Assembly (NCBI GenBank): GCA_012729695.1
Contig: JAAYCP010000027.1
Coordinates: 50,857 to 114,856, forward strand
DNA: 64,000 nucleotides
Direction: 5' to 3'
Source of the DNA: Actinomycetales bacterium
GTDB lineage: Bacteria > Actinomycetota > Actinomycetes > Actinomycetales > Dermatophilaceae
The position numbers and the translations under genes are program-made. The number at the start of each line of letters is the position of its first letter. Positions within the stretch are counted from its first letter, which is position 1. Positions 3,567-60,116 of the stretch are shown here, piece after piece. The notes beneath the pieces were generated by a model. It was given only the letters and a program-made list of their open reading frames with translations. It was not told the origin of the DNA and searched no databases.

Positions 3567-3626
3567 ATGCTCTTCCCACACATGCTCTTCCCACACATGG
3601 TCTTCCCACACATGGTCCTCCCACAC
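3567..3626. repeat. 15 bp tandem repeat x4 (ATGCTCTTCCCACAC-like)
   Basis: ATGCTCTTCCCACAC ATGCTCTTCCCACAC ATGGTCTTCCCACAC ATGGTCCTCCCACAC. Confidence 0.95.
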
Positions 3627-3647
3627 GATGGCGTCAGGAGGCCGTCT

Positions 3648-23675: not shown

Positions 23676-23741
23676 CGTCGAAGCACGTGTGACGTCGAGA
23701 AGCACTGATGTTCGAGAAGCACGGATGACGTCGAGAAGCAC
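23663..23741. repeat. GAAGCAC-anchored direct repeat x5 with alternating 17/19 bp spacing
   Basis: GAAGCAC at 23663, 23680, 23699, 23716, 23735; most copies followed by TGTGACGTCGA / GGATGACGTCGA. Confidence 0.9.
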
Positions 23742-23760
23742 GGATGAGGTTCTGACACCG

Positions 23761-25236: not shown

Positions 25237-25281
25237 AGTGCTTCGCCTATGAGTGCTTCGTCTATGAGTGCTTCGTCCGGA
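25237..25281. repeat. 15 bp tandem repeat x3 (AGTGCTTCGTCTATG-like)
   Basis: AGTGCTTCGCCTATG AGTGCTTCGTCTATG AGTGCTTCGTCCGGA. Confidence 0.9.
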
Positions 25282-25347: not shown

Positions 25348-26466
25348 ATGCAGGAGATCCGTACGCACGAGGACTTCCAAGCGGCACTGGATGCCGGCGT
25401 GCCGCTGACCCAGCTCCGCATCCAGGCGCTCGACCTCGGCCCGTTCGAGGAGCAGCTCTACGCCCGGACGGATCTCGAGGGTCTCGTCGTGCTGGGCGGG
25501 TCGATCCCACCGAAGCTCGACACGCACCTGCGCAAGTACGGGGCGATCATCTTCCCCCGCCATCCGAGCGCACCCGTAGCGGTCTACCGCGACCGGCTCT
25601 ACCACCCGGCCGAGCTCTACAACGGGATCACGCACGGGTACGAGGAGACCCCGGACGCACGGGCCTACCGGTGGGCGCAGGACAGCGAGCTCGGCAAGGA
25701 CACCTACGTCTCGATGCTCAAGGCCATCCACGACGATGCCATGAGCGACGCCGTCTCGGACCTGCTCGCGGGGCGTCGGGTCGCCGGCGTGATGGGTGGG
25801 CACAACCTGGCCCGCGGGTCAGCGGGGTACCGCGCCGCCGCCGAGCTCGGGCACGCGCTCGCGCAGGCCGGCTATCTCGTCATCACCGGCGGAGGTCCGG
25901 GAGCGATGGAGGCCGCGAACCTCGGGGCGTTCACCCGGTCGGCCGAGCAGCTCGAGTACGCCCTCGAACGACTCGCCGCCGTCCCCTACTTCCACCCGAG
26001 CATCGACGACTGGGCACGGCTCGCCTTCGAGGTGCGCCGCGACATCGCCAACGGTCAGGAGCGCGACGAGCTCCCGCACAGTCTCGGGATCCCCACGTGG
26101 TTCTACGGTCACGAACCGCCCAACGTGTTCTGCCACGGCGTCGCGAAGTACTTCTCCAACGCCGAGCGCGAGGACGGGCTCATCGCCGCGGCCAACGCCG
26201 GCATCGTCGTCCTCCCCGGTGCCGCCGGGACGGTCCAGGAAATCTTCCAGGCGTGCACGCCGCTGTACTACCACGACGAGTCCCGCCCCGGACACGACCT
26301 TCCCCGCCTGGTCCTCCTCGGCGTGGAGCACTGGACCGAGGTCCTTCCTGCCTGGCCGCTCGTCAAGGCACTCGCCGCGGGCCGGCCGATGGCCGAGCAC
26401 ATCCATCTCGTCGACGACGTCCCGGCGGCGATGGAGTTCTTCGAGCCCGCGACGGTCCCCGGCTAG
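25348..26466 (+). CDS. LOG family (TIGR00730-like / Rossmann-fold) protein
   Basis: VITGGGPGAMEAANLGA and VVLPGAAGTVQEIFQ, resembling PGGxGTxxE of LOG family. Confidence 0.8.
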   Translation: MQEIRTHEDFQAALDAGVPLTQLRIQALDLGPFEEQLYARTDLEGLVVLGGSIPPKLDTHLRKYGAIIFPRHPSAPVAVYRDRLYHPAELYNGITHGYEETPDARAYRWAQDSELGKDTYVSMLKAIHDDAMSDAVSDLLAGRRVAGVMGGHNLARGSAGYRAAAELGHALAQAGYLVITGGGPGAMEAANLGAFTRSAEQLEYALERLAAVPYFHPSIDDWARLAFEVRRDIANGQERDELPHSLGIPTWFYGHEPPNVFCHGVAKYFSNAEREDGLIAAANAGIVVLPGAAGTVQEIFQACTPLYYHDESRPGHDLPRLVLLGVEHWTEVLPAWPLVKALAAGRPMAEHIHLVDDVPAAMEFFEPATVPG

Positions 26467-26510
26467 GCCGAAGTGGCCGGTCGGTGGTGTGGGGTCGCGC
26501 GCACTACTAA

Positions 26511-26755
26511 GCACGCGGGGGCACCCACAAGCAGCTGGCGAAAACAACGGGTGCTTGTCCGCGCGCGGCAACGCACGCGGGGGCACCCACCAGCAGCGGG
26601 CCAGAACAACGGGTGCTCGTGCGCGCGCAGCAACGCACGCAACACCACCCACACGCTGCGCTGCGCGCGACAACAGGTGCTTGTGTGCGCACAGCAACGC
26701 ACGCAACACCGCCCACACGCTGCGCTGCGCGACAACGGGCGGCCGTCCGCGCTGA
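26511..26755. repeat. Four-copy tandem array of ~62-64 bp imperfect repeats with hairpin potential
   Basis: Units about 26511-26572, 26573-26634, 26635-26698, 26699-26755; conserved ACAACgGGTGCTtGT...GCAACGCACGC. Confidence 0.9.
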
Positions 26756-26816
26756 TCAGCCCCGTGCGCCGAAAAGGGGGTGAGCCCTGTCGGAGCACGG
26801 CACTAGCATCGCGCGG

Positions 26817-27794
26817 GTGACCTACATCTACGCTCAAGACCTGCGTAAGACCTACCGATCACGGTCAGGGGAGGTCCACGCCCTGGCCGGCCTGAGCCTG
26901 AGCGTGCCGCAGGGGACCGTGAAGGGGCTGCTCGGACCGAACGGTGCCGGGAAGACGACCACAGTCAAGGTGCTCAACACCCTCATCGAGCCAGACTCCG
27001 GCACCGCCTCGGTGGCCGGAATCGACGTCCTCGCCGACCCGGGAGGGGTCCGTAGGGTGATCGGCGCCAGCGGGCAGTACGCCGCGGTTGACGAGAACCT
27101 CACCGGCCTGGAGAACCTCGAGATGGTCGGCCGGCTCTACCACCTCGGCGCGCGGCGGGCCAAGGCACGGGCGCAGGAGCTCATCGAGGCCTTCGACCTC
27201 ACGGATGCCGGGGACCGCCAGGTCAAGGGCTTCTCCGGCGGTATGCGCAGACGCATCGACCTGGCCTGCGCCCTCGTGAACACTCCCCCGGTCCTCTTCC
27301 TCGACGAGCCGACGACCGGCCTGGACCCGCGCAGCCGCATCGGGATGTGGGACGTGATCCTGGGCCTGGTGCGGGAGGGCACGACGGTGCTGCTGACGAC
27401 GCAGTACCTCGAGGAGGCCGACTACCTCGCCGACCACATCAGCGTCGTCGACCACGGGGTCGTCATCGCCGAGGGCACCGCCGATGAGCTCAAGGCCGAG
27501 GTGGGCGGCCACAGAGTTGTGATCACCCTGGTCCACGAGGCCGACGCCGACACCGCACGGGCTGTCCTCGCCCGGCACGGCTCCGGGGAGGTCCGGACCC
27601 ACACCTCGGGGCGCACTCTGGACGTTGCCGTGGAGGAGGGACCACCCAGCCTGCAGCGGGTGCTCGCCGCACTCGAGCAGGCGAGCATCCCTCTGCACGA
27701 CGCCGGCATCCGTCGCCCCACGCTGGACGACGTCTTCCTGACCCTCACCGGCCACGACAGTGGTGCGGAGAATGAGAGCGAGCTGAGCGCATGA
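26817..27794 (+). CDS. ABC transporter ATP-binding protein (DrrA-like)
   Basis: GPNGAGKTTTVKVL, FSGGMRRRIDLACAL, LFLDEPTTGLDPRSR. Confidence 0.92.
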   Translation: MTYIYAQDLRKTYRSRSGEVHALAGLSLSVPQGTVKGLLGPNGAGKTTTVKVLNTLIEPDSGTASVAGIDVLADPGGVRRVIGASGQYAAVDENLTGLENLEMVGRLYHLGARRAKARAQELIEAFDLTDAGDRQVKGFSGGMRRRIDLACALVNTPPVLFLDEPTTGLDPRSRIGMWDVILGLVREGTTVLLTTQYLEEADYLADHISVVDHGVVIAEGTADELKAEVGGHRVVITLVHEADADTARAVLARHGSGEVRTHTSGRTLDVAVEEGPPSLQRVLAALEQASIPLHDAGIRRPTLDDVFLTLTGHDSGAENESELSA

Positions 27795-31560: not shown

Positions 31561-32340
31561 TCAGGAAGAGGTGACCAGCGTGCCGATCGGCTCCCCGCGC
31601 AGCGCCCGCGTGATGTTGCCGTCGCCCTCCATGCCGAAGACGACCATCGGGAGCTGATTCTCCATGCACAGGCTGAAGGCGGCAGCGTCGACGACCTTGA
31701 GGTTCGCGCGCAGCGCCTCCCGGAAGGTCACCTTGTCGAGCTTCTTGGCGTCCGGGTTCGTGCGCGGATCCGAGTCGTAGACACCGTCCACCCCGCTCTT
31801 GGACATCAGGACCGCGTCGCAGTGGCACTCCAGGGCCCGCTGCGCGCTCACCGTGTCGGTCGAGAAGTAGGGCATTCCCGCACCCGCTCCGAAGATGACG
31901 ACGCGGCCCTTCTCCAGGTGCCGGATCGCGCGGCGGGGGATGTACGGCTCGGCGACCTGACCCATCGTGATCGCCGTCTGGACACGGGTGTCGATGCCCT
32001 CCTTCTCCAGGAAGTCCTGGAGAGCCAGGCAGTTCATCACCGTGCCGAGCATGCCGATGTAGTCGGCCCGGGAGCGGTCCATGCCCTTCTGCTGCAGCTC
32101 CGCACCCCGGAAGAAGTTGCCCCCACCGACAACGACCGCGACCTGGATGCCCTCCTCGACCGCGGCGGCGATCTGGCTCGCGATGCCCTTGACCACGTCC
32201 GGGTCGACCCCGATCCGGCCGCCACCGAAGACCTCACCAGAGAGCTTGAGAAGGACGCGGCGGGGCCGCTGGGAGGCAGGCTGGGTCACAGGCGAGCTCC
32301 TGGCTGAGGGCGGATAGGCGGTCGATTGATCCTGCCACAT
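31561..32340 (-). CDS. pyrH: UMP kinase
   Basis: [44 protein letters not shown]; start approximate. Confidence 0.95.
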
Positions 32341-32407
32341 GCCAGGCGTGGAACGCTCATCGGCAGGCGTCTCACCGGCAGTGACGCGGGCCTGATGACC
32401 AATGGCG

Positions 32408-32441
32408 ACGCCCCGCACACCGGAACTGGTGTGCGGGGCGT
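32408..32441. terminator. Hairpin downstream of tsf (ACGCCCCGCACACC-GGAACT-GGTGTGCGGGGCGT)
   Basis: Perfect 14 bp stem, 6 nt loop; no T-tract. Confidence 0.7.
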
Positions 32442-32460
32442 ACGAGCCGGGACGCGAGGA

Positions 32461-33291: not shown

Positions 33292-33341
33292 TACCTGTCT
33301 TCCTTGAGCTCGATGACCCAGTTGGGTGATGAAGGTGGGGT

Positions 33342-33367
33342 GTGCAGTCCCACCGATGGGACTGCAC
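33342..33367. terminator. Hairpin 2 in rpsB-tsf intergenic (GTGCAGTCCCA-CCGA-TGGGACTGCAC)
   Basis: Perfect 11 bp stem, 4 nt loop. Confidence 0.6.
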
Positions 33368-33388
33368 GTGGGTAGGTGGTCTGCTGGC

Positions 33389-33417
33389 GTGGGGCCGGCC
33401 CGTTGGACCGGCCCCAC
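33389..33417. terminator. Hairpin 1 in rpsB-tsf intergenic (GTGGGGCCGG...CCGGCCCCAC)
   Basis: Perfect 10 bp stem. Confidence 0.6.
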
Positions 33418-33438
33418 CTCGCAGAGAGTGAACTGACC

Positions 33439-53313: not shown

Positions 53314-53343
53314 TTCGGTACGTAGTGATTCGGTACGTAGTGA
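53314..53343. repeat. 15 bp tandem repeat x2 (TTCGGTACGTAGTGA) in rplS leader
   Basis: Two exact copies read directly. Confidence 0.9.
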
Positions 53344-53577
53344 TGGGGCTGAGCTGGCCGCGTTCTCGACTCGCGCGATGAACTCCCCCTGTGGCAGGGG
53401 CCAGGTCATCTCAGTCCAAGGGGCAATCTTGCCAGAGAGCACCGTCCCTCGAGAAATCGCCCGAGAGATCCGCTCGAGGACTCAGCACGGGGAATCGGCA
53501 CCGTGACACGAGCCGTCCCCGGACGCGCCGGTGCCGCAGCCCGGAAAGCTGCGGCACCGCCAGAGAACCGTCGACGA

Positions 53578-59947: not shown

Positions 59948-60051
59948 GCGGTCATCCTTCCGTATGCGTCGCCCCAGGCTCGCGCGGCGCCTCTGCAGCT
60001 TGGGTGTGCGGTGGCAGGCCGGGCGAGCGCTGACTCCCAAAGACCTGACGG

Positions 60052-60096
60052 ACGACGAACGGCGGGCATGCGATGCGCATACCCGCCGTTCGTCGT
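60052..60096. terminator. Long hairpin between KH-protein gene and rimM (15 bp perfect stem, 15 nt loop)
   Basis: ACGACGAACGGCGGG / CCCGCCGTTCGTCGT. Confidence 0.7.
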
Positions 60097-60116
60097 GTGG
60101 TTCGACCGAACCAGCC

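Follow-up and report, generated by a model that had tools for sequence, protein, structure and literature searches.

What does a tandem array of 62-bp units do between a gene related to the LOG group and a gene for a DrrA-like transporter ATPase? A sequence-only reading of the 64-kb stretch of DNA analyzed here (the window) had described four diverging copies, held that their sequences change while pairing is kept, and proposed a structured leader/ncRNA or protein-binding array controlling the exporter genes. The tandem arrangement itself was confirmed by TRF (26522-26724, period 62, 3.2 copies, match 81%), by a direct-repeat search that returned four copies at spacings of 62, 62, and 64, one of which (26670-26752) reaches into a fifth unit, and by a 21-bp unit consensus with 4 matches in the 64-kb window compared to 0 in 100 shuffles. 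The array comprises four 62-bp units and the left half of a fifth and extends from 26487 to 26752 (Table 1). Scanning the window with R1, a sequence-only model built from 16 units, revealed no strong site besides the array. Two further statements held up: the locus is not a CRISPR, as the repeat spans the entire 62-bp unit, whose copies diverge, and there is no constant repeat with unique spacers, and its codon structure is incidental, the array being non-coding and 62 not being a multiple of 3. In the gap between the array and the exporter gene, TAGCAT at 26804-26809 could be the -10 element of a leaderless promoter; a promoter scan of the array region gave no consensus promoter.

Table 1 Features of the array and its neighbors in the window.
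Feature	Position	Strand	Basis and remarks
Upstream gene, Rossmann-fold protein related to the LOG/TIGR00730 group; stop codon before the array	25348..26466	+	matches below curated cut-offs
Unit 1 dyad core	26487..26526		degenerate outer left half-site GTGTG; R1 match 26488-26536, 38.4 bits
Unit 2 dyad core GGGTG-N6-CGCGC-N8-GCACG-N6-CACCC	26549..26588		R1 49.1 bits; exact pattern match
Unit 3 dyad core GGGTG-N6-CGCGC-N8-GCACG-N6-CACCC	26611..26650		R1 54.1 bits; exact pattern match
Unit 4 dyad core AGGTG ... CGCCC, lightly degenerate	26675..26714		R1 47.1 bits
Fifth unit, left half GGGCG-N6-CGCGC, eroded right half	26737..26752		boundaries approximate; partial R1 match 26728-26752, 7 bits; sequence
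64-bp gap, array to GTG start	26753..26816		sequence
Downstream gene, DrrA-like ABC transporter ATPase	26817..27794	+	TIGR01188, above cut-off

The sequence-only reading had suggested searching the genome for further dispersed copies of the unit, and this search was positive. With BLAST and R1, we found the unit about 55 times, spread over about 20 loci, in the assembly from which the window derives (3.04 Mb in 310 contigs, fragmented, about 95% complete). Two contig pairs overlap (C77 end with C48 start, C239 end with C94 start); once the units they share were counted a single time, the 57 unit matches at the surveyed loci came to about 55. Both counts are lower bounds, nine loci touching a contig end, and the C232 array, whose units are split by an insertion sequence (IS), was counted as one locus. 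The GGGWG dyad pattern described below, with one mismatch allowed, matched 77 times in this genome compared to 0 times for a reversed control pattern. A plasmid collection contained no match to the array. Among viral contigs, one stretch matched in two related contigs; it lies in GTGCGC-rich sequence and was read as a chance match.

Alignment of the units defined a 40-bp dyad, GGGWG-N6-CGYGC-N8-GCRCG-N6-CACCC, followed by a 22-bp spacer. Of 30 centre-to-centre spacings, 26 were 62 bp, two 63 bp, one 61 bp, and one 64 bp. Between arrays, the half-sites are 89% identical, while the remaining core (40%) and the spacer (41%) are closer to the 30% expected from composition; within arrays, spacer similarity is 0.56. 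In 28 adjacent unit pairs, 490 of 1176 non-half-site positions differed, compared to only three length changes. Since substitutions are tolerated outside the half-sites and length changes are rare, we read the half-sites and their spacing as constrained; the constant period could in part be inherited from the duplication that founded each array. Alternating unit orientation is rare and was seen for one unit in C21 and in C10.

Gene context was assigned with a codon-usage gene caller (own script), so that gene starts are approximate. At 17 of the 18 loci with readable context, which do not include C15 and C59, two arrays that begin at contig ends, the array lies 3-82 nt behind a stop codon. Six of these 17 loci are situated between convergent genes (at one of them, the other gene ends at a distance of 547 nt) and six between co-directional genes, where the array was always closer to the 3' end of the upstream gene; at the remaining five, the other side is off the contig. 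The exception is C303, in which the array lies between divergent genes. Relative to the upstream gene, unit orientation is mixed and therefore implies no strand-specific signal.

The claim that pairing is preserved while sequences change did not survive comparison across the genome. At the 20 symmetric positions, Watson-Crick pairing was no better than expected from independent columns. In a permutation test with 44 units, we counted 498 pairs compared to 527±9 after shuffling, and 500 of 500 shuffles equalled or exceeded the observed value; a pair-counting tool gave the same picture, with 62.9% paired as opposed to 65.5±0.9% and a covariation score of 0.072 compared to 0.091. Restricting the test to the half-sites revealed no excess, and one unit per array gave 232 pairs compared to 247±5.7 in shuffles. 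The RNAalifold consensus of the units from this genome, at -2.57 kcal/mol, contained no compensated pair. The deficit may result from strand composition differences between arrays, and the sole conclusion that we draw from it is that compensation is absent at the symmetric positions. In addition, the two inner stems on which the claim had been built are not homologous, as they occupy offsets 10-14/27-31 in copy 2 and 8-12/23-27 in copy 3.

Single units fold to about -18 (plus strand) and -22 kcal/mol (minus strand), with a z-score of about -1.8. The perfect hairpins present at several other gene ends of the window are more stable, at -35 to -42 kcal/mol. The whole 350-nt array region folds better than shuffles (z of -2.5 and -3.4), for which the inverted half-sites alone could be a sufficient cause. 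Rfam returned chance-level matches only, none inside the array, and a terminator scan of 26000-27300 found no U-tract terminator-like site. Long perfect hairpins lacking T-runs, for example GCCCCGCACACCGGAACTGGTGTGCGGGGC, were noted behind genes at 32290-32460, 33292-33438, and 59948-60116 of the window; these are probable U-less actinobacterial terminators.

With respect to related genomes, the outcome was divided: the GGGWG form of the unit is missing from the closest relatives, but the same architecture occurs with altered half-sites. Allowing one mismatch, the GGGWG dyad pattern had no match in three genus mates, and in a search of 148 genomes nearly all had 0-1 matches per strand. Beyond the own genome, a version permitting CWCCC, searched exactly in 188 genomes of the family, matched only in genus g69 and, at a single site, in G241. 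In g69, three species have 1-6 sites each of the GGGWG...CWCCC pattern; these palindromes are near-perfect and mostly stand alone, their outer half-sites being GGGAG/CTCCC or GGGTG/CACCC, and those inspected lie at or near gene ends. The sibling genome G001 contains a three-unit tandem array (C206, L156:1397-1548) of the same 40-bp architecture with the outer half-site GGGAT/ATCCC; its units are at 1397, 1446, and 1509 (spacings of 49 and 63), and it is located behind a stop codon between convergent genes. Other weak single matches in relatives (E of about 1e-3 to 1e-2) showed no convincing tandem period. Between species, both outer halves have changed together, while covariation is lacking among the variable positions within the own genome. 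Both observations are accounted for by a symmetric protein site; an RNA hairpin accounts for the first alone. Palindromes of the GGGWG...CWCCC type at or near gene ends were listed for g69 (L182, L210-L217, L181, L219), with near matches in g61 (L188, L189), and the palindromes of both genera show compensating differences between sites.

G001 also harbors an unrelated dispersed dyad family of about 70 bp, GTYGACGGATGGTT...AACCATCCRTCRAC (L194:2611-2681, L233-L268), with 48 copies at 41 loci and a median distance of 20 nt from a gene 3' end. Some copies are in tandem, spaced by about 74-77 where both are complete, and the family shows no covariation. The LOG-related gene has orthologues in all three genus mates (75-77% identity), and in G001 one copy of this family follows it, in the slot of the window array. 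Similarly, the slot between sseB and infC is occupied by an array in the own genome and, in the three genus mates, by palindromes that differ from one another; the one in G003 (Nostocoides sp. F2B08, which matches L031 exactly behind the LOG gene) is essentially solitary. From these exchanges we conclude that gene-end palindromes in this genus turn over quickly. The folC slot was considered as an empty-site comparison and was unusable, as gene order differs.

The closest known counterparts are the REP and BIME elements, a class also marked by binding of gyrase, IHF, or Pol I. In E. coli, gyrase binds the tandem BIME-2 units, and REPs help Rho to terminate transcription (PMC2817692); REPs lie mostly between co-directional and convergent genes, and their palindrome bears a GTAG or CGTC tag on one end (PMC3733652). 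The present family resembles BIME-2 and REP in being extragenic, dispersed, and lineage-specific, in its imperfect dyad and regular tandem period, in its location at gene ends and between convergent genes, and in being interrupted by an IS. However, no alignment column corresponds to GTAG or CGTC, the family consensus ending in CAAC-GGGWG and CACCC-AC, and the REP-associated Y1 transposase (PF01797) is absent from the own assembly, which is about 95% complete, and from the three genus mates, with a positive E. coli control. Since tag and transposase, two defining features, are both missing, we do not class the family as a RAYT-type REP. Moreover, each arm of its 40-bp dyad is split into two half-sites, where a REP forms a compact hairpin of 20-40 bp, and the units stand head-to-tail rather than in the regular alternation of BIMEs and number about 55 rather than hundreds. 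We infer that the family may work like a BIME, yet it is not filed as a member.

Other systems share individual traits. Mycobacterial MIRUs are dispersed intergenic tandem repeats of roughly similar unit length in Actinomycetota, but they are not known to be dyad-symmetric. The eukaryotic TTF-I/Reb1 roadblock arrays of rDNA likewise place repeated short sites just behind transcription units, but they serve one gene family. A literature search revealed no comparable genome-wide tandem roadblock system in bacteria, and searches of open-licence papers gave no pertinent work on palindromic tandem repeats from Actinobacteria or Intrasporangiaceae, which is not proof of absence.

The reading we favor, and which we consider about equally likely to be right or wrong, is that the array belongs to a REP/BIME-like family of DNA elements, dispersed and lineage-specific, that sit at gene 3' ends, are bound by a dimer, and act as gene-end boundaries. 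It builds on the observed dispersal, dyad symmetry, constant period, and 3'-end placement together with the lack of RNA covariation and of a Y1 transposase; from these we infer the bound protein, its dimeric nature, and the boundary function. The element would work as double-stranded DNA, with each dyad providing a symmetric site for a putative dimeric or tetrameric DNA-binding protein, such as a host nucleoid protein or a topoisomerase. The fixed period would set successive complexes in constant register, and at gene ends these would form orientation-independent boundaries that absorb transcription-generated supercoils, as the gyrase sites of E. coli BIME-2 do, and/or stop read-through. Of the two possibilities originally offered, leader/ncRNA or protein-binding array, the RNA part finds no support, and the protein-binding part is retained on account of conserved symmetric half-sites, a variable remainder, and strict spacing. 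Some observations speak against the favored reading: the C303 array sits between divergent genes, an element with an important host function would not be expected to be nearly missing from genus mates, and the solitary near-perfect hairpins of g69 would also be explained by an RNA terminator. A more far-reaching version is a genome-wide gene-end boundary system, in which phased 62-bp arrays behind genes are covered by a fast-evolving dimeric DNA-binding protein that halts transcription or insulates supercoils and co-evolves with its sites, so that each species would have its own outer half-site (GGGTG, GGGAT, GGGAG) on a common inner CGYGC-N8-GCRCG core; it appears quite improbable to us.

Somewhat unlikely, but a possibility to be taken seriously, is that the units are selfish REP-like repeats, non-autonomous mobile or amplifying sequences without host function that spread into gene ends, where an insertion would cause little damage, and whose symmetry and constant length are what a mobilizing enzyme would recognize. 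The lineage restriction, with the GGGWG form absent from three genus mates, is in line with this, as are the unrelated 3'-end palindrome family of G001, the tandem expansion, two alleles at one locus that resemble conversion between units, and the IS inside one array, such insertions being known for REPs (PMC1525189). Yet none of the four genus genomes encodes a Y1/HUH (RAYT-type) transposase, the controls being positive, and half-sites at 89% identity amid near-random sequence need either continuing selection or very recent activity, the latter being at odds with the divergence of the spacers. The alternative that the units are RNA terminators, in which a unit hairpin ends the upstream transcript, acts bidirectionally between convergent genes, and is repeated for efficiency, strikes us as unlikely. 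The family shares with intrinsic terminators, including U-less actinobacterial hairpins, the dyad, the position behind stop codons, and a possible bidirectional use, and a terminator role would fit the arrays between convergent genes, the exchange of palindromes in the sseB-infC slot, the solitary perfect dyads of g69, and the folding of the whole region above shuffles. But the array has no T-run or U-tract terminator-like site, its pairing lies below that of shuffles without a compensated pair, its unit hairpins are weaker than the unrelated perfect hairpins that other gene ends of this genome use, and a terminator does not need a fixed tandem period of 62 bp.

That the array is a leader RNA, riboswitch, or attenuator for the DrrAB-like exporter, close to what had been proposed from the window, is now very improbable. 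Its location upstream of drrA is compatible with this role, but dispersal already contradicts it: about 20 unrelated genes are followed by such units, five or more of the loci are flanked by convergent genes, and since arrays between convergent genes have no downstream leader, the role is unsupported. Mixed orientation, the lack of an Rfam match and of covariation, and folding weaker than that of the perfect gene-end hairpins of the window likewise argue against a structured leader or ncRNA. Chance low-complexity sequence or an assembly artefact is hardly credible at all; the sequence is indeed GC-rich and partly alternating (GCGCGC), several arrays are at contig ends, and two contig pairs overlap, but roughly every second array is internal to its contig, and neither the reversed control pattern nor almost any of the 148 genomes approaches the pattern count of this genome.

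The arrays offer concrete sites for studying gene ends in high-GC bacteria with regard to termination, supercoil release, and insulation, and they raise the question of how repeats spread without a known transposase. REP/BIME-like arrays have so far mostly been found together with a RAYT transposase and outside Actinomycetota, whereas the present ones occur in Actinomycetota without one, and they have a constant 62-bp period and symmetric half-sites that co-change between species.

Some smaller observations concern individual loci. The IS inside the C232 array (L167:3463-4674) carries HTH_Tnp_1 and rve_3 pieces and separates six units of the array from the other two. C239 and C94 (L169 end, L170 start) share 246 bp and disagree only within one half-unit, where the clustered differences match the next unit; these differences look like gene conversion between units, with strain mixture or assembly error as alternatives. 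The window also contains intergenic minisatellites with a period of ~15-19 bp that are unrelated to the 62-bp unit (3567-3631, 23680-23747, 25237-25277, and 53314-53344).
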